NCBI GenBank assembly: GCA_002841695.1
Contig: PHAN01000001.1
Span: forward strand, 1-64,000
Length of the DNA: 64,000 nt
Reading direction: 5' to 3'
From: Elusimicrobia bacterium HGW-Elusimicrobia-1
GTDB lineage: Bacteria > Elusimicrobiota > Endomicrobiia > PHAN01
In this document: one piece after another, positions 9,104-26,160 of the stretch
Layout of the letters: every line of letters begins with the position of its first letter
Position numbering within the stretch: position 1 is the stretch's first letter
Made by a program: the position numbers and the translations under genes
Notes under the pieces: model-generated
Seen by the model: the letters and a program-made list of their open reading frames with translations, nothing else
Databases searched by the model: none
Told to the model about the DNA's origin: nothing

Positions 9104-9780
9104 ATTTTCAAAGCTTCCATTGCCGCATTCGCGGCGAGTTTTTTCTTCGGGATATTGTTGAAGCGCGATATCCGGCCGTCGTCAAAAAGAATCATGCCCG
9201 ACGCCCGGTCCGCTTCCATCGCTCCCGTGGTGTTTGCCACTACGATGTCGCATCTTTTTTGAGTCAGTTTTTTTCGCGCGTCGGACAAAAGCCGTTTCGC
9301 GGTCTCAAGGGCAAATCCGACTATTACGGGTCTTTTTCCGGCAGCGTACTTTTTTGCGCCTATTGAGGCAAGGATGTCCGGCGTAATCGAAAGTTCGACG
9401 GATAATCCTGTTTTATTCTTTTTAAGTTTTCCGGACGCTTTGAGCGACGGGGCGTAGTCGGAGACCGCCGCCGCGCACACAATAATATCAGCCGCGTTCG
9501 CGAGTTTTTTTACGGCCGCGAGCATTTGCGACGCGGACACTACGCGCACAATCCCGGCCTCAGACGGAAACATCGCGGCGCAGGGGCCCGCCACGACAGT
9601 TACGCGGGTTTTTTTTGCAATGAAAGCTTTTGCCAATTCCGAGCCCATTTTGCCGGACGAGGCGTTGGAAATGAATCTGACCGAATCGAAGTATTCCCTC
9701 GTGGGGCCGGCGGTTATGAGTACTTGCGGGATTTTGCGGCGCGCCGCGCGGCGAGATCGTTTTGCGGCGGAAGTTTTCAT
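9082..9780 (-). CDS. coaB: Phosphopantothenate-cysteine ligase (CoaB), stand-alone
   Basis: Second step of CoA synthesis from pantothenate: joins 4'-phosphopantothenate to cysteine. After a basic stretch of ~16 residues come QVLITAGPTREYFDSVRFISNASSG in outline (AGPTRE…SNASSGKMG), VVAGP, AAAVSDYAP, the KIKK-type lysine in KLKKNK, and PVIVGFALET. The reading frame stays open to 10086, but the upstream part overlaps coaC out of frame. The ATG at 9780 shares its A with the coaC stop (TAATG), so I take it as the start (232 aa). In most bacteria coaB and coaC are one fused gene; here they are separate and translationally coupled. Confidence 0.92.
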   Translation of the reverse strand: MKTSAAKRSRRAARRKIPQVLITAGPTREYFDSVRFISNASSGKMGSELAKAFIAKKTRVTVVAGPCAAMFPSEAGIVRVVSASQMLAAVKKLANAADIIVCAAAVSDYAPSLKASGKLKKNKTGLSVELSITPDILASIGAKKYAAGKRPVIVGFALETAKRLLSDARKKLTQKRCDIVVANTTGAMEADRASGMILFDDGRISRFNNIPKKKLAANAAMEALKIWSKKNC

Positions 9781-10319
9781 TATCGAAGGGCGGTTTTCAC
9801 GGCAGCGATGATTTTTTCGGGGTTGGCCAGACGTCCGTCGCCCTCTTCTCCGCAGGCGAGTTCGCCTTTTTCCGGCGGAACTATCAGGCCGCCGCGCTTC
9901 TTGAGGCGTTCGACATTTTCTTTCGTGGCGGGATGGCTCCACATGGCGGCGTTCATCGCCGGCGCAAACAGTACGGGACATTCGGCGGAAATGACGGCCG
10001 AAGAAAGCAAATCCTCGCAGCGTCCGGCGGCTATGCGCGCTATGGCGTCGCACGTGGCGGGAGCCACCAGAAGGACGTCCGCCCATCGGGAGAGCGATAT
10101 ATGGTAGTCGTCGTTCTCGTCGGAAAACATATCCGTGTAAACGCGGTTGCGGCTAAGCGTTTTGAGCGTTTGCGTCGTAACGAACCGCGCGCCTGCGTCC
10201 GTCAAAATACATTTTACGTCAAAACCTTCCTTGACGAAGGATCTCACCAGCGCGGGTATTTTGTAGGCGGCTATGGAACCGGTTATGCCCAGCAATATGT
10301 TTTTTTTTCGCACGGTCAA
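9780..10319 (-). CDS. coaC: Phosphopantothenoylcysteine decarboxylase (CoaC), stand-alone
   Basis: FMN-dependent decarboxylation of phosphopantothenoylcysteine to phosphopantetheine. It is 179 aa, the size of the CoaC half of the usual CoaBC fusion. The motifs are LLGITGSIAAYK, the catalytic histidine in DDYHISLSRWAD, VAPATCDAIARIA, the PAMNAAMW motif, and the cysteine of GELACGEEGDGRL. It ends at a TAATG junction with coaB. rpoZ and gmk lie upstream, the common gmk-rpoZ-coaBC order. Confidence 0.95.
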   Translation of the reverse strand: MTVRKKNILLGITGSIAAYKIPALVRSFVKEGFDVKCILTDAGARFVTTQTLKTLSRNRVYTDMFSDENDDYHISLSRWADVLLVAPATCDAIARIAAGRCEDLLSSAVISAECPVLFAPAMNAAMWSHPATKENVERLKKRGGLIVPPEKGELACGEEGDGRLANPEKIIAAVKTALR

Positions 10320-15883: not shown

Positions 15884-17073
15884 ACATAACCGCCAAAGAC
15901 GACAAATATCTGCTGAACGTGTACAAAAAAGCCCCGCTCACGCTTAAACGCGCCGCAGGCAAGTACATTTACGACGACAAAGGCCGACGCTATCTGGATT
16001 TCTTTTCGGGCTTGAGCGTTTGCAATTTCGGCCACGCGCCCCCTAAAATCGTGGCGGCCGTCAAAAAACAGTCCGGCAGGTATCTGCACGTGTCAAATCT
16101 TTATCACACGGATACGCAGGCGAACCTGGCCGAGAAACTGTCCCGACTTGCTTTTCCGGGAGCCGTATTTTTCTCAAACTCAGGCGCCGAAGCCAACGAG
16201 TGCGCCATAAAACTTGCCCGCAAATGGGGAGTTCCGTCGGGGAAATATGAAATAATAACTTTTCAAAACTCGTTTCACGGACGCACGCTTGCGACCATCG
16301 CGGCCACCGGCCAGGTTAAGTTTCAAAAGGGCTTCGAGCCGATGCCTCGCGGGTTCCGTTACGCGCGGTTCAACGATTTGTCGTCGGTAAAAAAACTCCT
16401 GTCGCGCCGCACAGCGGCCATAATGGTCGAGCCCGTTCAGGGCGAAGGCGGTGTGATTCCGGCGTCTGAAAAATTCCTCAAAGGCCTCGCGCAAATCTGC
16501 CGCCGAAAAAAAATATTGTTGATTTTCGACGAGATACAAACGGGTATAGGCCGCTGCGGCGCTGCCTTTGCCTTTCAGTCCTACGGCGTCCGTCCCGATA
16601 TCCTCACGCTTGCGAAGGCACTCGGAGGCGGGTTGCCGCTCGGCGCCACGCTGGTCTCCCGTAAACTCCCGGAAGTGCTCGTTCCGGGCGATCACGGCTC
16701 GACATTCGGAGGAAACCCCGTTTCCTGCGCGGCGTCTTTGGCGGCGCTTTCGATGCTCGACGCGCGATTGCTCAAAAACGTTCGCGATACCGGAAAATAT
16801 TTCGCCGGACGGCTCATTCAACTCCGTGAAAAATATCCGGATGTCATAAAAGAAGTCCGGGGCTTGGGGCTTATGGTCGGCGCTGAACTTTTTGTGACGG
16901 GCAAAGGCATTGTCGACGAATGTCTTAATCGCGGACTTCTTATTAACTGCACTCAGGATAAGGTTCTGCGCTTTCTTCCGCCGCTTATTGTCGGCCGTAA
17001 AGATATAGACACCGCAACTCGCGTGCTCGACGAGGTTTTATCATCGCCCCGATGGACGTCTATAAAAAAATAA
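15880..17073 (+). CDS. argD: Acetylornithine aminotransferase
   Basis: PLP-dependent transfer of an amino group to N-acetylglutamate semialdehyde. YLDFFSGLSVCNFGH, FFSNSGAEANECAIKLAR, FHGRTLATIAATGQ, LLIFDEIQTGIGRCG, and the PLP lysine in LTLAKALGGGLPLGA are present, and the length (397 aa) is normal. Placement directly after argB supports ArgD over other class III transaminases. The 3' end overlaps the potassium-channel gene by 22 bases. Confidence 0.95.
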   Translation: MNITAKDDKYLLNVYKKAPLTLKRAAGKYIYDDKGRRYLDFFSGLSVCNFGHAPPKIVAAVKKQSGRYLHVSNLYHTDTQANLAEKLSRLAFPGAVFFSNSGAEANECAIKLARKWGVPSGKYEIITFQNSFHGRTLATIAATGQVKFQKGFEPMPRGFRYARFNDLSSVKKLLSRRTAAIMVEPVQGEGGVIPASEKFLKGLAQICRRKKILLIFDEIQTGIGRCGAAFAFQSYGVRPDILTLAKALGGGLPLGATLVSRKLPEVLVPGDHGSTFGGNPVSCAASLAALSMLDARLLKNVRDTGKYFAGRLIQLREKYPDVIKEVRGLGLMVGAELFVTGKGIVDECLNRGLLINCTQDKVLRFLPPLIVGRKDIDTATRVLDEVLSSPRWTSIKK

Positions 17074-18798: not shown

Positions 18799-19860
18799 TT
18801 ACACCAGAGATGCGATGAAATCGCCCGCTTCCGTGGTCGACATTCCCATCTTTCCGGCCGCCAGCGACTTGATTTTTCCCGTCGATAAGGCCTTTATCAC
18901 CGCTCCCTCGACGGCCTTGCCGGCTTCTTTCTCGCCTATAAACTCCAGCAGCATCCCGCCCGCGCAAATGGCTGCCATGGGGTTTATCACGTTTTTGCCG
19001 GTGTATTTGGGAGCCGAGCCGCCTATCGGCTCGAACATTGAGGTGCCTTCGGGGTTGAGGTTGCCTCCGGCGGCTATGCCCATCCCGCCCTGGATCATCG
19101 CGCCCAGGTCGGTGATGATGTCGCCGAACATATTGTCGGTTACGATTACGTCGAACCACTCCGGATTCTTGACGAACCACATCGTGGTCGCGTCGACGTG
19201 CGCGTAGTCGGTCTTTACGTCGGGATATTCTTTGGCGACTTCGTTAAAAGTTCTTTCCCACATATCGAAAGCGTAAGTCAGAACATTCGTCTTGCCGCAA
19301 AGCGTGAGTTTTTTGCGCTTGTTCCGCTCGCGCGTATATTCAAAGGCGTATCTTATACAGCGCTCCGCGCCTTTGCGAGTGTTAATGGACGATTGAATGG
19401 CCACCTCGTCCTTAGTTCCTTTCTTTAAGAATCCGCCCGCTCCGACGTAAAGTCCTTCGGTGTTTTCGCGCACTACGACGAAATCAATGTCCTCGGGTTT
19501 CTTGTCCTTCAGAGGACAGTCCACGTTGGGATAAAGTTTTACGGGTCTTAAATTTACGTACTGGTCGAGCTCGAATCTCAGGCGCAGCAGCAGTCCCTTT
19601 TCAAGAATCCCGGGTTTTACGTCGGGATGACCTATGGCGCCCAGATAAATCGCCTTGAATTTCTTCAAATCTGCAAGCGCGGAATCGGGAAGTATTTCTC
19701 CGGTTTTTTTGTATCTCTCGCCGCCCAAATCAAAATTCGTTGTCTCGAGTTTGAAGCCGTATTTAGACGCGGCGGCTTTCAAAACTTTCATTCCTTCGGC
19801 CACGACCTCCGGCCCCGTCCCGTCTCCGCCCATAACGGCTATTTTGTGTGTTGTTGCCAC
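18799..19860 (-). CDS. leuB: 3-isopropylmalate dehydrogenase family (LeuB)
   Basis: Oxidative decarboxylation of 3-isopropylmalate to 2-ketoisocaproate with NAD. HKIAVMGGDGTGPEVVAEG, LLLRLRFELDQYVNLRPVKL, VVRENTEGLYVG, DMFGDIITDLGAMIQGGMG and GSAPKYTGKNVINP place it in the isocitrate/isopropylmalate dehydrogenase family. The leu operon context supports LeuB, although homoisocitrate or tartrate dehydrogenases look similar. The start is GTG (19860) with GGAG six bases upstream. It is the last leu gene, after pilZ. Confidence 0.88.
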   Translation of the reverse strand: MATTHKIAVMGGDGTGPEVVAEGMKVLKAAASKYGFKLETTNFDLGGERYKKTGEILPDSALADLKKFKAIYLGAIGHPDVKPGILEKGLLLRLRFELDQYVNLRPVKLYPNVDCPLKDKKPEDIDFVVVRENTEGLYVGAGGFLKKGTKDEVAIQSSINTRKGAERCIRYAFEYTRERNKRKKLTLCGKTNVLTYAFDMWERTFNEVAKEYPDVKTDYAHVDATTMWFVKNPEWFDVIVTDNMFGDIITDLGAMIQGGMGIAAGGNLNPEGTSMFEPIGGSAPKYTGKNVINPMAAICAGGMLLEFIGEKEAGKAVEGAVIKALSTGKIKSLAAGKMGMSTTEAGDFIASLV

Positions 19861-19874
19861 ATGCTCTCCTTGTT

Positions 19875-20028
19875 AAACGGCAGATTAGGAGTATAGTTTA
19901 GAGATTAGGATATTGGGAGATTAAGAAATTAGGGGGGATCTTTATAAATCCTAAATCTCCCGCTCGTAAATCTTTTAATCTTTTCCCCTAATCTCCCAAT
20001 CTCTTAATCTCCTAATCTCATCTTTTAC
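19875..20028. repeat. Imperfect inverted repeat built of TAATCTCC words
   Basis: Between pilZ and leuB, the left half carries GATTAGGA…TTGGGAGATTAAGAAATTAGGGG and the right half repeated CCCCTAATCTCCCAATCTC-type words, so the two halves are roughly complementary. It looks like a degenerate simple repeat that folds into a long hairpin. The pilZ stop lies at its right edge. Confidence 0.6.
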
Positions 20029-20359
20029 TTTCACACGGTCTCGTTTTTTTGACAAAATTGTCTATCTTCTCAAGCGTTTCCGGCAGCATTCCTATGAAGT
20101 GTACGCCGTAGAATTTCCGGCGTAATCTTTCTTCCGCCCGCACTATTTCGGCGGCGAGCACTATCAATTCTCCGTCGAGCATGAACTTAATAAGGGTCTT
20201 TTGGCCCACGACAAACGGCGTGTGCGACTCAAGACCCGCGCCGCCTTCGGAGATGTCGAAAATTTCGCCCACGCCGATGGTGGTGTCCTCGTCGCAGAGT
20301 TCGCTGAAAAACTGGCAGTTAATCCGCGGATATTTTCTTTTTTCTTCTTCTTGTGACAT
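20018..20359 (-). CDS. PilZ domain protein
   Basis: Small (113 aa) cyclic-di-GMP-binding PilZ protein. The N-terminal RKYPR (residues ~8-12) is the RxxxR loop, and DISEGGAGLES is the (D/N)xSxxG motif; IVRAEERLRRKFYGVHFIGM closes the barrel. It could act with the GAF/HD-GYP protein in the same window, but that is inference. It lies between leuD and leuB in the leu operon. The start codon sits in a sequence that, read in another frame, encodes a leuD-like C-terminus (see the repeat at 20319-20391). Confidence 0.88.
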   Translation of the reverse strand: MSQEEEKRKYPRINCQFFSELCDEDTTIGVGEIFDISEGGAGLESHTPFVVGQKTLIKFMLDGELIVLAAEIVRAEERLRRKFYGVHFIGMLPETLEKIDNFVKKTRPCESKR

Positions 20360-20391
20360 AAGATATCAACCCGTCCGACTTTATGATTTTA
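20319..20391. repeat. leuD-end/pilZ-start repeat, copy 3 (diverged)
   Basis: Read leftward, one frame gives a leuD-like tail (KIIKSDGLISYV…KKKISAD, stop) and another gives the PilZ start ([14 protein letters not shown]). It matches 21838-21904 and 24407-24471 but has a 9-bp insertion and several substitutions. Confidence 0.8.
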
Positions 20392-20416
20392 TAAAAATTT
20401 TACGTTAATTCGCTAT

Positions 20417-20813
20417 TTATTGCGGTAAATAAATTTCGCCCGTTATTTCTTCCTGATGTTCCTCGTCTTTTTTGTGTGCCGAGAGAGTTATTCTGGCCTC
20501 GTCCGTTCGTGTTATTCCGGCATTAAATCCTCCGATAACATCGGTGTTGCCGAAATTCACCCTGTAACTATTGTTTTCCTTCTGATAACCCCAATCGCTC
20601 GCAATTAATCATGCCACCTTCCACGGGGTATATGGTTTCGCCGTATTTTGCCTCATAATCTATGCCCTTATGGAACCATGAACCTCTTGATATATTTCTT
20701 GGGCCATAATCGGAAGTGATAGACCATGTCAAGGCAGGCAATGTCTGGGAAAAGATAATTTTATGGCAGATTATAAATAGAATAGTTAGCAAAATGCTTG
20801 ATACTTTCTTCAT
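20417..20813 (-). pseudogene. M23 peptidase relic with internal deletion
   Basis: The first ~70 codons (signal peptide, then ITSDYGPRNISRGSWFHKGIDYE) match the start of the intact peptidase at 21941-23485. They run straight into a second segment in another frame (DWGYQKENNSYRVNF…EEHQEEITGEIYLPQ, stop at 20417-20419) that matches its last ~60 residues. About 390 codons are missing and the frame is broken, so the product would stop after 81 aa. Only the first metal histidine/aspartate pair survives. It is the decayed second copy of the lipoprotein-peptidase cassette. Confidence 0.85.
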
Positions 20814-20823
20814 TTTTTGATGG

Positions 20824-21729
20824 TTACTTTTGCAAATGTTCTTTAAAATTTATCTCTGTAGTTTTATCTTCCTGATTCCATGGATTGTCTACCTGCGCAA
20901 TGCCCTCATTAGATATTTCAAAAACAACATATTTCTTCTCGGAATCCCAGAAAGTATTTTTCTTTAGGTCGTAAAAACGCGTAATGCCCCTTTCTCTATA
21001 GGGAGCGTATTGTAATGCTTGGCGGATATTTATACTTAGATATCTTCCGTCCGGTGAGATTTTTAAGAGATCGGGGGCACCTATTTCATATCCTTTGTTA
21101 TACTCTTCTACGGCAGGGAAAAGCAATATTTCATGCCCGTTTTTATCAAAAACGAATATTGTCTCCCTGCCTTCTGCCCCGTATTCCGCGCTTCCCGTTA
21201 ACATCGTTATAGATTCTCCGTTGTCGGAAATTAAGACCTGGTGGATGTCCTGTATACCCCTTCCTTCGCTGAATTCCTTTTCCCAGAGAATATTCCATGA
21301 GTTATCATAAAAAATAAATTTACCCGTAACCAGGCCTTCGGGAATAATCTCTTCTTTGTCGTTTTCGTCTATAATGGCTATATCAGTTTTATTGCTGATT
21401 ACACCGGCGAATTTTCCTGAGTTACTTACCACGGCATCTTTGGCAATCTCTTTTTTTATTTTATGTCTTTTTGTGTTTTCTTCCGACGGAAGCATCTTCT
21501 CTTCTTCAACGATTATCTCCGGCTTTAATGATATTTCTTTTAAGGTTTCGCCTCGTTCATTTATCACTTTGAGCGCGTTTTCTTCCTGTATTATTTTATT
21601 GCCTTCGGGGTTTATGGTAGGTTGGGTTGGCAAGATTTTTGATTTTGTGAAAATACTACAGCCCCAGAATTGGGCGGAGACAATTAATAACGCTGCTGCG
21701 GTTGTTATTTTTATCAGGTTGGTATTCAT
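20824..21729 (-). CDS. Lipoprotein, propeller-like repeats (cassette copy B)
   Basis: Signal peptide MNTNLIKITTAAALLIVSAQ with lipobox FWGC, so a lipoprotein of ~301 residues. The body contains repeated strand patterns such as VVSNSGKFAGVISNKTDIAIID, VLISDNGESITML, LKISPDGRYLSINI and FYDLKKNTFWDSEKK, resembling a beta-propeller. It is paralogous to the product of 23482-24438. It has its own start with AAGGGGG upstream. The gene directly precedes the broken peptidase copy. Its function is unknown; an envelope role is inferred from the signal peptide and the peptidase partner. Confidence 0.8.
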   Translation of the reverse strand: MNTNLIKITTAAALLIVSAQFWGCSIFTKSKILPTQPTINPEGNKIIQEENALKVINERGETLKEISLKPEIIVEEEKMLPSEENTKRHKIKKEIAKDAVVSNSGKFAGVISNKTDIAIIDENDKEEIIPEGLVTGKFIFYDNSWNILWEKEFSEGRGIQDIHQVLISDNGESITMLTGSAEYGAEGRETIFVFDKNGHEILLFPAVEEYNKGYEIGAPDLLKISPDGRYLSINIRQALQYAPYRERGITRFYDLKKNTFWDSEKKYVVFEISNEGIAQVDNPWNQEDKTTEINFKEHLQK

Positions 21730-21753
21730 AAGTCCCCCTTATTCTTGCGGCTG

Positions 21754-21869
21754 GTTATTTTGTCGGATAGATCGCGGATATTCTCAAAAGGGTTATCGCC
21801 GCGACGGCAGGTTTTTCAGGGAAGAAAAAAATCGAGCTTAATCCGCGGGTATTTTCTTTTTTCTGACAT
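21754..21869 (-). pseudogene. 5' fragment of a pilZ gene
   Basis: From ATG 21869 the frame reads [17 protein letters not shown] and then stops. After a frame shift, a PilZ-like segment continues (…CRRGDNPFENIRDLSDKI…). The fragment lies upstream of lipoprotein copy B and overlaps the second leuD-end repeat. It is evidence that the pilZ start was duplicated together with the cassette. Confidence 0.65.
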
Positions 21870-21904
21870 AAGAGATGAGTCCGCCGCTCCCTATTATTTT
21901 TTTA
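21838..21904. repeat. leuD-end/pilZ-start repeat, copy 2
   Basis: Differs from the genuine leuD 3' end (24407-24471) by one substitution over about 64 bases. It encodes the leuD tail ([19 protein letters not shown], stop) with no leuD body upstream. It sits just downstream of the intact M23 peptidase gene. Confidence 0.9.
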
Positions 21905-21940
21905 AGAAATATTTCGCAAGATTTCTTTTCTGTCTCCAAA

Positions 21941-23485
21941 TTATCGCTTCAAACAAATCTCACCCTTTATTTCCTTGTAGTGTTCTTCATCTTCTTCTAC
22001 GGTGTTAAAGGTTATGCGTTTATCATCTTTTTCTTTTATACCTACCTTAAAATGTTCAATGATAGTATTCGTACTGAAACTTATCGCATAACAATAGCCA
22101 TCATTTTCCTTCTGATATCTCCAATGGCTCATCGTTGTAATCTGAGGATATTCTTTTTCGTAGTCCTGCCCTTCACAAGCATCCCCGCAACCTTCCGGAT
22201 GATGATAGCAGATTTCTTTTCCGGAAATATTAACCTCACCCATAAAATCATTACCGTAACGGTTCAGATTTTCTGATTTTATTGCCACCTCTGTTATATG
22301 CTCAAGATGTTTTGTAAAAGCGCTGCCCGACGTGTTTCTTGTGCCGGCAATATTAAAAAGAGGTATATCTATCGTGTAAGCAATTTCTTTATAGACGATA
22401 CTTACCATAGCAGTCCACCGGTCATTAGTAGCGATGGTAAACTGGTTCGTTGCGCCTATAATCTCGTTGCCATTTATATCTGTGCCTTTTACTACAAGCA
22501 AGTGTTTGCCATCAGGCAAACCCAAAGAACTAAAATTCTGTAAAAATATAAACCTATCGTCGCCAAGCCCAAGCGGGCATATGCCCGTACTATTCCCATT
22601 AGATTCAATTATTGCCCCGATACTTTTATTTTCTTCCTTCATTCCGCCATAACAAAATGTATTATTCCCGCCCAGATGAATCGCTTGATTCGGGTACAGT
22701 CGCTTATAAATCAAAATATCCACTTTGTCTAAATCAAGCCCGCCCTGAGAATTTACCCTTATCCTGATGGGATAAGCGCTGTTTATTTTTTCTTTGGTAA
22801 AAACATAACCATCCGGCGGGCTTTCTATAGTCGCTCGCGGTAAACTATCGGGTGGATGTTGAACATGTAAAAGAGGATTATCCGCTCCATTTCTATACTC
22901 AAGATGGAGATGTGTTGAAACTCCCCCGGAATTGCCTACGGGCGCAATGGGTTCGGTGGAGGATACATTTGATTGAGTTTTTACACGTTCTCCATCGGTT
23001 CCTAACACATAATAGCCATCGGTATTGCGAACCCAATAATTTGCCCTTGGACATAATATTTTTATAGCTTTCTGTCCGGACCATAAAATTATTGCATTAG
23101 ATTGTCTTATATCGTTTGGATTATTTGGATTTACTAATGTGACATTCCTTAATTCCCAATTTCCTGAGATTACCGGCAAAGAACCTGAACCAGTAAATAT
23201 ATGTATATATTCCCAACTACCGTGACTGCCAGAAATTTCAATATCCCAACCACCCCCATACTCAATAAATCCGATAGTTCCACCTTCTACAGAAGGAATA
23301 TTCTCACCATACCCTCCACCATAATCTATCCCATAATGAAACCAAGAATCAGGTACGTTTCTTGGACCATAATCCGAAGTTATCGGCCACGGTGGGGCAG
23401 GCAATGTTTGGGCGATTATAGTTGTCCAACTACACAAATGGCAAATAATAACTAAAAATGATAACTTTATTATTCTGGGTTTCAT
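21941..23485 (-). CDS. Secreted M23-family (LytM) metallopeptidase
   Basis: A ~25-residue signal peptide (IIKLSFLVIICHLCSWTTIIAQ) is followed by a LytM domain with DYGPRNVPDSWFHYGIDYGGG (first His/Asp of the zinc site, residues ~37-55) and STHLHLEYRN (HxH, near 190). Zinc ligands are present, so it may cleave peptidoglycan cross-bridges or other glycine-containing peptides. An unusual ~100-residue segment lies between the two halves of the domain. The C-terminal ~310 residues are of unknown fold and hold paired cysteines (EGCGDACEG). The start overlaps the upstream lipoprotein stop (ATGA), so the two are coupled. Confidence 0.87.
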   Translation of the reverse strand: MKPRIIKLSFLVIICHLCSWTTIIAQTLPAPPWPITSDYGPRNVPDSWFHYGIDYGGGYGENIPSVEGGTIGFIEYGGGWDIEISGSHGSWEYIHIFTGSGSLPVISGNWELRNVTLVNPNNPNDIRQSNAIILWSGQKAIKILCPRANYWVRNTDGYYVLGTDGERVKTQSNVSSTEPIAPVGNSGGVSTHLHLEYRNGADNPLLHVQHPPDSLPRATIESPPDGYVFTKEKINSAYPIRIRVNSQGGLDLDKVDILIYKRLYPNQAIHLGGNNTFCYGGMKEENKSIGAIIESNGNSTGICPLGLGDDRFIFLQNFSSLGLPDGKHLLVVKGTDINGNEIIGATNQFTIATNDRWTAMVSIVYKEIAYTIDIPLFNIAGTRNTSGSAFTKHLEHITEVAIKSENLNRYGNDFMGEVNISGKEICYHHPEGCGDACEGQDYEKEYPQITTMSHWRYQKENDGYCYAISFSTNTIIEHFKVGIKEKDDKRITFNTVEEDEEHYKEIKGEICLKR

Positions 23486-24438
23486 TTCTCTAAATACTTT
23501 TTAAGGTCTATGGTGTCCACTCCTTTATTTGCGTCAAAATATCCGACTTTGGCCATTCCATCATTTTCGATATTTAAGACATCATATCGTTGGTTAGAAT
23601 CCCAAAAAGTATTTTTCTTTAGGTCATAAAACCATGTTATATATTTATCTGGCTGTTCTTTCAATATCAATTTAACTGTAACTGCTAAATAGCCACCACT
23701 AGGAGAAATTTTATCAATACTTCCAGCCCGAATATTTTTCTCATTTCCTTCAGACGGTATACTAAACAATTCGTTCCCATTTCTATCATATACATAAATT
23801 ATGTCCCTTAGATATGCGCCCTCTGTGGTATATGAAACACCTGTTGTATCCCGGGTTTTTATTGCCACCGCTTCTCCACTATCAGCAATTAGCGGTTCGG
23901 GAGATAAATAACTTATTCTTCCCTTAGGCAACTTCTTTTCCAATATAACTTTTCCGTCGGCATCCCAAATAGTAATTTTTCCTGTCGCTTTTCCTTCCCC
24001 TTGAAATGATATTTCTTCCCCGGGTTCATTATCGATTACCGCGACATCATGTTTATTGCTGACTATTCCTAAGAATCTTCCGTTTCTGCTTAATACGGCT
24101 CTTTTTATAATCTCCTTCTTTATTTTCAGGGTTTTTATGCTTCCTGTGTCGCCCCCGGTTTTTTCTTCTTCAAATATCGTTTCCGGTTTTAAGGATATCT
24201 CTTTTATTAATTTGCCGTCTTCGTCTATTATTTTAACGGTGTCGCTGCCTTCCTCCTGAATTATCCTGCTCCCTTCGCTTTTTGAAGTAGGTGGCAGTTG
24301 TTCACTGCCACCGCTTGTTTTGGTTTTGAATGTATCGCAACCAGTAAAGCCGGATATCATTGCCATAACTGCAATTAAGACAAGCGCAGGTATTTTTTTT
24401 ATGTCGTTAATCCGCGGGTATTTTCTTTTTTCTGACAT
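23482..24438 (-). CDS. Lipoprotein, propeller-like repeats (cassette copy A)
   Basis: A 318-residue paralogue of 20824-21729 with the same body (…VVKIIDEDGKLIKEISLKPE…, IKKEIIKRAVLSRNGRFLGIVSNKHDVAVID, WFYDLKKNTFWDSNQ). The N-terminus is odd. The first 11 residues [11 protein letters not shown] are those of a PilZ protein, followed by the hydrophobic signal segment PALVLIAVMAMISGFTGC with lipobox GFTGC. The start codon therefore derives from the leuD/pilZ overlap and lies inside leuD. Translation runs into the M23 peptidase gene by ATGA coupling. Function unknown; surface or periplasmic location inferred. Confidence 0.82.
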   Translation of the reverse strand: MSEKRKYPRINDIKKIPALVLIAVMAMISGFTGCDTFKTKTSGGSEQLPPTSKSEGSRIIQEEGSDTVKIIDEDGKLIKEISLKPETIFEEEKTGGDTGSIKTLKIKKEIIKRAVLSRNGRFLGIVSNKHDVAVIDNEPGEEISFQGEGKATGKITIWDADGKVILEKKLPKGRISYLSPEPLIADSGEAVAIKTRDTTGVSYTTEGAYLRDIIYVYDRNGNELFSIPSEGNEKNIRAGSIDKISPSGGYLAVTVKLILKEQPDKYITWFYDLKKNTFWDSNQRYDVLNIENDGMAKVGYFDANKGVDTIDLKKYLEK

Positions 24439-24904
24439 AAGAGATGAGTCCGCCGCTTCCTATTATTTTTTGTACGAACGGAGGCAGCGGCTCGGCGGCG
24501 TGAGTCGCGCCCGTGGAGAGATTTTTAATCGAGCCGGCGCGGGCGTCTATGGCTATTACGTCGCCGTTTTTTATTTTTGCAGTTTCCGTCGATACAAAAA
24601 CCGGAAGGCCGGTGTTTATGGCATTGCGGAAGAAAATTCTGGCGTATGATTCCGCCACCACGGCCGCCACGCCCGCGGCCTTCAGGGAGATAACCGCGTG
24701 CTCCCTTGACGAGCCGCAGCCGAAGTTTTTGCCCGCCACGAGTATGTCGCCCTTGCGGACTTTTTTTACGAAGTTCTCGTCGAGGTCTTCAAGACAATGT
24801 TTTCCGAGCTCGGCCGGATCGGTGGTGCTCAGGTATCTGGCGGGTATTATCTCGTCGGTATTTATATTGTCGCGGTATTTGTGCACTTTTCCTTTTATAA
24901 TCAT
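24407..24904 (-). CDS. leuD: 3-isopropylmalate dehydratase small subunit
   Basis: Partner of LeuC in isomerising 2- to 3-isopropylmalate. [33 protein letters not shown] and [25 protein letters not shown] are diagnostic; at 165 aa it is the short bacterial/archaeal form. The start overlaps leuC (ATGA). The last 32 bases also contain the start of lipoprotein copy A in another frame, and the last ~65 bases are repeated twice downstream. Confidence 0.97.
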
Positions 24905-26160
24905 ATTACTTCTCCGGGGTGAGCGATTCGTCCTTTGACGGCGGAAGCGGCGGCTACGTAGGGCGACGCCAGATAAACTTCGCTTTTAGGGTGGCCCATT
25001 CTTCCTACGAAGTTCCTGTTGGTCGTGGCCACGCAGCGTTCGCCTTCGGCCAATATTCCCATGTGTCCGCCCAGGCACGGGCCGCACGTGGGCGGAGAAA
25101 TTACAGCGCCCGCGTCCGTGAATATTTCATAGAGACCTTCGTCGAGAGCGGCGCGCCATACCGTCGGCGTCGCCGGTATGATTATGAGCCGTACGCCGCG
25201 GGCGACTTTCCTGTTTTTCAGAATCGAGGCTGCCTGTCTGAGGTCTTCTATGCGGCCGTTGGTGCAGGAGCCGATTACGACCTGGTCGATTTTTATTTTG
25301 CCGAGCGATTTTGCCGTCGCCGTGTTCGACGGCAGATTCGGTTTTGATACGGTCGGCTCTATTTTGGCTACGTTTATGTCGTATACTTTTTCGTATTCGG
25401 CGTCTTTATCGGAAGAGAATATTTCAGGGCGCGCCCAGCGTCCCTTGCCGTACGCCAGAGTGGTTTTATCGACGGGGAATATTCCGTTTTTACCGCCCGC
25501 CTCTATGGCCATATTAGCCATGGAAAAGCGCTCGGCCATGGACAGCCGCGCTATGGCGTCTCCGGTAAATTCCATTGAGCGGTAGTTTGCCCCTTCCACT
25601 CCCGTAATTCCTATTATATGAAGGATGATGTCTTTACCCGTCACCCACTTGGCGGCCTTACCGCTCAGACGAAAAAGCATTGTCGAGGGAACCTTCAGCC
25701 ATACTATGCCGGCGGCGAATATGGCGGCCAAATCCGTCGAGCCCATACCCGTGGAGAATGCTCCCAGCGCTCCGTACGTGCAGGTGTGCGAGTCCGCGCC
25801 TATGACGATGTCGCCCGGCTTTACAAGGCCGAGTTCCGGAAGCAGGGCGTGCTCGACGCCGCAATTTCCGCCCTCGTAATAATGGACGATTTTTTGCGCG
25901 CGCGCGAACTCCCTTACTTTTTTAACCTGATTGGCAGATGCGATGTCCTTGTTGGGAGTGAAGTGATCCATGACGAGCGCGATTTTGCGCCGGTCGAATA
26001 CCCTCTTTGCGCCGGTTTTTGCGAATTCCTCCACGGCCAGCGGCGCAGTGACGTCGTTGGCCAGCGCCATATCCACCCGCGCTTCCACGAAGTCGCCGAC
26101 AATTACGGACTTGCGCCCGGCATGTTTCGCTATGATTTTCTGCGTTATCGTCTGCGGCAT
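24901..26160 (-). CDS. leuC: 3-isopropylmalate dehydratase large subunit
   Basis: Aconitase-fold [4Fe-4S] enzyme of leucine synthesis. Cluster cysteines lie in [13 protein letters not shown] and [31 protein letters not shown]-type substrate motifs ([20 protein letters not shown]) are present. The length (419 aa) matches the type that pairs with a short LeuD. A 205-bp gap with a MITE-like element separates it from leuA. Confidence 0.97.

Follow-up and report, generated by a model that had tools for sequence, protein, structure and literature searches.

Two diverged copies of a recurrent lipoprotein-M23 peptidase gene pair lie between leuD and pilZ in an Elusimicrobiota leucine operon

The window, by which we mean the whole 64,000-nucleotide stretch of Elusimicrobia bacterium HGW-Elusimicrobia-1 DNA that was analysed (contig PHAN01000001.1, positions 1 to 64,000), carries a leucine operon on its minus strand in which two gene pairs separate leuD from pilZ. 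Read along that strand, the order is leuC (24901..26160), the upstream operon gene, an open reading frame with 87% amino acid identity to leuC of the same-genus genome G001; intact leuD (24407..24904; Pfam Aconitase_C, 82% amino acid identity to G001); a first junction, J1 (24407..24471), which comprises the leuD 3' end with a former pilZ start and forms the left border of cassette A; lipoprotein A (23482..24438), a probable beta-propeller of 318 aa recognized by our family HMM; M23-A (21941..23485), a predicted secreted M23 peptidase of 514 aa; J2 (21838..21902), a second copy of the leuD 3' end and pilZ start that matches J1; lipoprotein B (20824..21729), intact at 301 aa; a peptidase remnant, M23-B (20426..20813); J3 (20319..20391), a diverged third leuD end recognized by junction alignment and joined to an intact pilZ (20018..20359; Pfam PilZ, 52 bits); and leuB (18799..19860; Pfam Iso_dh), the next operon gene. 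The preliminary description had reported this alternation of three leuD-3'/pilZ-5' junctions with two lipoprotein-M23 pairs, and its coordinates are right. Both pairs are confined to this locus within their own 2.06-Mb genome, bar one 22-residue peptidase relic with 77% identity, which lies directly behind another gene on contig C8 (L064:8519-8584, minus strand).

The junctions are unequally conserved. J1 and J2 differ by a single mismatch over 65 nt (98% identity) and J3 aligns with a score of 54-56, where shuffled sequences reach 29 at most, in agreement with the earlier reading of two near-identical copies and a diverged third; only three real copies of a 73-nt junction query are present in the whole 2.06-Mb genome. 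Lipoprotein A apparently begins on the former pilZ ATG within the leuD end, from which 12 residues lead into its signal sequence, and this would place the insertion point right after about pilZ codon 11. Upstream of the pilZ start, 12 of 36 nt are changed in J3 relative to J1, yet 10 of the 12 codons keep their residue, an outcome with a chance of ~1e-5 under random substitution (neutral, ungapped model; 12 codons). The pattern hints that the J3 stub may be the descendant of a separately evolving leuD. A pilZ remnant downstream of J2, suspected when one stop codon was masked, received no support from Pfam and was discarded.

Comparison of the leuD-pilZ-leuB locus with related genomes, as had been suggested, revealed an empty site. 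In G001, leuD runs straight into pilZ, whose start codon lies within leuD, and neither gene of the pair was found in this genome, which is 89% complete; leuC, leuD, pilZ and leuB are each ~78-81% identical in nucleotide sequence between the window genome and G001. Both pairs also differ from their surroundings in composition, with a GC content of 0.39 (range 0.37-0.41) versus 0.52 and GC3 values of 0.33 for pair A and 0.40 for pair B versus 0.58-0.65 for leuC, leuD, pilZ and leuB, and a similar excess of AT over the flanks is seen for the pair in several high-GC hosts. Together, the empty site and the foreign composition indicate that the two-gene module in the leuD/pilZ overlap was horizontally acquired and bear out the original proposal of cassette insertion at an overlapping gene junction. 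Among the loci examined, G024 is the sole case outside this genus with pilZ between leuD and leuB. The leuD-leuB gap of other relatives holds different genes, namely a 334-aa frame, a lipoprotein-like frame and a distant pilZ (L018:1978-3189, L028:1978-2901 and L040:1997-2254), so insertions may recur at this spot. The leucine operon setting is incidental to the pair, whose neighbours differ in the other genomes examined.

The two lipoproteins share about 43% amino acid identity (42-44%). The predicted structure of lipoprotein A is all-beta, with a mean pLDDT of 74 and many core blocks at 85-95, and a fold search with this model returned mostly propellers as best matches. Since their TM-scores all fall below 0.35 and a profile match of the lipoprotein to tricorn protease is weak (E 3e-4), we consider the beta-propeller assignment no more than probable. 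Lipobox candidates picked by eye are SGFTGC in lipoprotein A and QFWGC in lipoprotein B; the cysteine is missing in several homologues.

M23-A narrowly exceeds the Pfam Peptidase_M23 cut-off (28.9 bits versus 28.7) and has a complete active-site set (H50, D54, H95, H192 and H194, in the arrangement H-x3-D, His, H-x-H), and these five catalytic residues are all kept in every full-length Elusimicrobiota M23 protein examined. Matches of the family profile in the PDB include M23 proteins, LytM, lysostaphin and ShyA. The predicted structure of M23-A (pLDDT 41.5) is too poor for use, and the protein lacks a T9SS C-terminal sorting domain. M23-A is thus a predicted, putatively exported peptidoglycan endopeptidase. 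In M23-B, an N-terminal segment of ~70 codons and a C-terminal segment of ~60 codons, corresponding to residues 5-73 and 452-512 of M23-A, are fused in different frames with loss of ~380 codons; because the C-terminal 60 codons are still free of stops, the deletion looks recent. Copy B had been described as decaying, which is true of its peptidase, given the deleted catalytic middle and the frameshift, and untrue of its lipoprotein, whose frame of 301 codons has no interruption.

Rather than a one-off, the pair represents a recurrent family. Among 341 Elusimicrobiota genomes, the lipoprotein profile matched in 20 and the M23 profile in 15, and the pair is also present in WOR-3 and in Goldiibacteriota, where the peptidase is broken. 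Across all three groups the propeller gene precedes the M23 gene, and the two usually overlap or adjoin. A contig search with lipoprotein A alone as query gave no match, and one with an alignment of M23 heads gave eight loci, four of which hold distant M23 proteins only. G002, G275 and G256 hold the pair in tandem, as G038 and G034 probably do, whose contigs break off within a copy. One locus (L105:1-10613) holds three tandem units of a small secreted gene and an M23 head with ~80% mutual identity, an IS200-type transposase between two of them and a long tail on the last unit only. The earlier statement that it has no known counterpart stands as far as named systems are concerned, since the pair is covered by none of the families in Pfam, NCBIfam or PADLOC, and fails in that the pair itself recurs. 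We found no paper combining peptidase M23, beta-propeller, operon and secretion.

The M23 proteins vary in length from about 410 to nearly 5000 aa, and those of about 2150-4980 aa carry FG-GAP, Kelch, NHL, fn3 or Ig repeats in the cases scanned; in G275 and G256, short M23 copies stand in tandem with a long copy. A T9SS-type C-terminal domain is found on the G002 M23 protein (27.6 bits against a curated cut-off of 23) and on the ORF following M23 in G038. In 11 of 12 genomes there are diverged SprA-like proteins, none of which reaches the family cut-off. The window's own genome encodes one of ~1700 aa (G000:C15:5927-8884, minus strand) and has ten T9SS-type tail matches, which together suggest a T9SS-like system.

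The two genes of the pair are lost asymmetrically. An intact propeller gene accompanies a broken peptidase gene in window pair B, G002 copy 1, G123, G280 and the Goldiibacteriota locus L115, and propeller genes without a neighbouring hydrolase occur in G101, G244 and G231 (the last at a contig edge), as do those of a more distant propeller subfamily in G242, G264 and G249. No intact full-length M23 gene without an upstream candidate partner was seen among the loci examined, with the partners in G131, G275, G256 and G260 assigned by position only, as the propeller HMM gave no match there at E 1e-3. These loss counts are small and raw, uncorrected for phylogeny, and some truncations could be MAG assembly errors. 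Conserved adjacency and retention of the partner after loss of the enzyme, as sought in effector-immunity systems, were both found, in small numbers, and a propeller retained while the peptidase is lost is the pattern expected of a protector gene. In G142, a propeller gene (L058:993-2020, minus strand) is followed by a weak NlpC/P60-like hydrolase (L058:3-992, minus strand) in place of M23.

How did two such pairs come to lie in tandem between copies of the same gene end? The preliminary description proposed insertion followed by duplication. Lipoproteins that are only ~43% identical beside J1 and J2 copies at 98% exclude that cassette and junction were recently duplicated together, and the data are better suited by successive insertion, or by an old duplication with conversion of J2. 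Under successive insertion, diverged but related pairs would have entered the leuD/pilZ site at separate times, with B probably preceding A. Each entry would have left behind a duplicate of the final ~65 nt of leuD, so that leuD and pilZ both stayed intact, and pair B would afterwards have lost its peptidase core and retained its propeller. The lower GC3 of pair A, its intact peptidase and its near-identical flanking junctions suggest that it is probably the younger.

The older-duplication scenario, in which a single ancient insertion with a copied leuD end was duplicated in tandem by unequal crossing-over between the repeats and J2 was later converted to J1, is a serious possibility, if less than probable. 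It would account for the grouping of A with B as closest relatives in the tree of M23 proteins (support 0.92), for J2 and J3 stubs that start at about the same leuD codon, and for the recurrence of arrays of related copies in G038 and G275. However, it requires an extra conversion event limited to 65 nt, the A+B grouping has a support of just 0.55 in the propeller tree, and the GC3 values of A and B are unequal.

We regard as unlikely a site-specific integrative cassette that attached at the leuD 3' end, carried a replacement end and relied on an integrase supplied from elsewhere. Such an element would explain why duplication of the gene end leaves leuD intact and why a diverged leuD end can be read in the J3 stub, with 10 of 12 residues kept despite 12 nucleotide changes. 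Against it, the junctions enclose nothing but the two genes, with no integrase or transposase among them; no terminal inverted repeats were found at the cassette A borders; the junction, searched for an attC-like single-strand fold, folds no better than its shuffles; the mobile-element search gave no Rfam match; and the borders of other pair copies are free of gene-end repeats. The G123 pair is flanked by a repeat (L063:8067-8211, 9717-9935 and 16656-16729) and was considered as a second case of gene-end duplication, which we rejected because the repeat is dispersed genome-wide, with one copy beside an IS91-type transposase. Finally, although the genome, split into 25 contigs, is probably a MAG, an assembly artefact is very improbable, as A and B are far too unlike to be one sequence assembled twice and the repeat spans just 65 nt within a 215-kb contig.

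With respect to function, we tentatively propose, as the most likely of the readings, that the pair encodes an exported wall endopeptidase and its cognate periplasmic protector, a reading that we hold as plausible, if short of probable, in its presumed binding, protection and target alike. The first gene would give rise to a periplasmic lipoprotein, probably a beta-propeller, and the second to an M23 endopeptidase, exported through Sec, whose active site is complete. This peptidase would cross the periplasm and cut peptidoglycan outside the cell, be it that of rivals, prey or debris, and the propeller encoded with it would bind the enzyme and shield the producer's own wall. The T9SS-type tails in G002 and G038 and the diverged SprA-like proteins agree with export past the outer membrane, and there is precedent for upstream-encoded periplasmic immunity proteins against peptidoglycan-targeting effectors (PMC12135965). 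The lack of such a tail on M23-A itself counts against this reading.

The main rival to a protector role, which we rate as possible but less than probable, is surface display. Because several family members also occur as the N-terminal heads of proteins of up to ~5000 aa, display fits them equally as well as a secreted weapon does. The M23 domain would then be the wall-opening head of giant surface proteins, loosening the producer's own peptidoglycan so that an adhesin-like chain can be displayed, with the propeller as a chaperone or local regulator and short forms such as M23-A as truncated or specialised versions. The long repeat-bearing M23 proteins, the short copies in tandem with a long one and the T9SS-type tails all favour this possibility, whereas many members of 410-820 aa have no such long tails, and a propeller that outlives its working peptidase is something a display helper would not need. 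Broader still is the suggestion that the protector pair constitutes an undescribed effector-immunity module that moves horizontally among Elusimicrobiota and candidate phyla close to them, an exported M23 endopeptidase with its propeller protector that spreads by repeated gene-end insertion with duplication of the host 3' end; we put this forward as speculative and, taken as a whole, improbable. Elusimicrobiota are mostly known from genomes alone, and a recurrent, horizontally acquired pair of wall hydrolase and partner would give the phylum a concrete candidate, open to testing, for a role in competition or in the export of surface proteins. The leuD/pilZ site offers a clean before-and-after view of insertion at overlapping genes.

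Several known systems resemble the pair in part. In IS91/ISCR-type mobilisation, the likeness is to the G123 pair, whose flanking repeat has a further copy beside an IS91-type transposase, but no such sequence is present at the window site. Giant surface proteins with T9SS-type tails share the tail or the Kelch, FG-GAP, fn3 and Ig repeats with some of the M23 relatives, whereas M23-A in the window is short and tail-less. The M23 endopeptidases LytM, lysostaphin and ShyA have in common with M23-A the H-x3-D, third His and H-x-H motifs. Unlike them, the M23 protein of the pair has its third His far removed from H-x-H in the sequence, carries an Ig-like region after these motifs, is encoded together with a propeller and in some cases bears a giant tail; we found no SH3b wall-binding domain in it. 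From the WHIX T6SS effectors (PMC12135965) the pair differs in that its peptidase has a Sec-type signal peptide of its own, no T6SS adaptor domain was found in it and protection by its partner is our proposal; the likeness lies in a wall hydrolase encoded beside a signal-peptide-bearing gene, in tandem variation and in a partner that is kept after the enzyme is lost.
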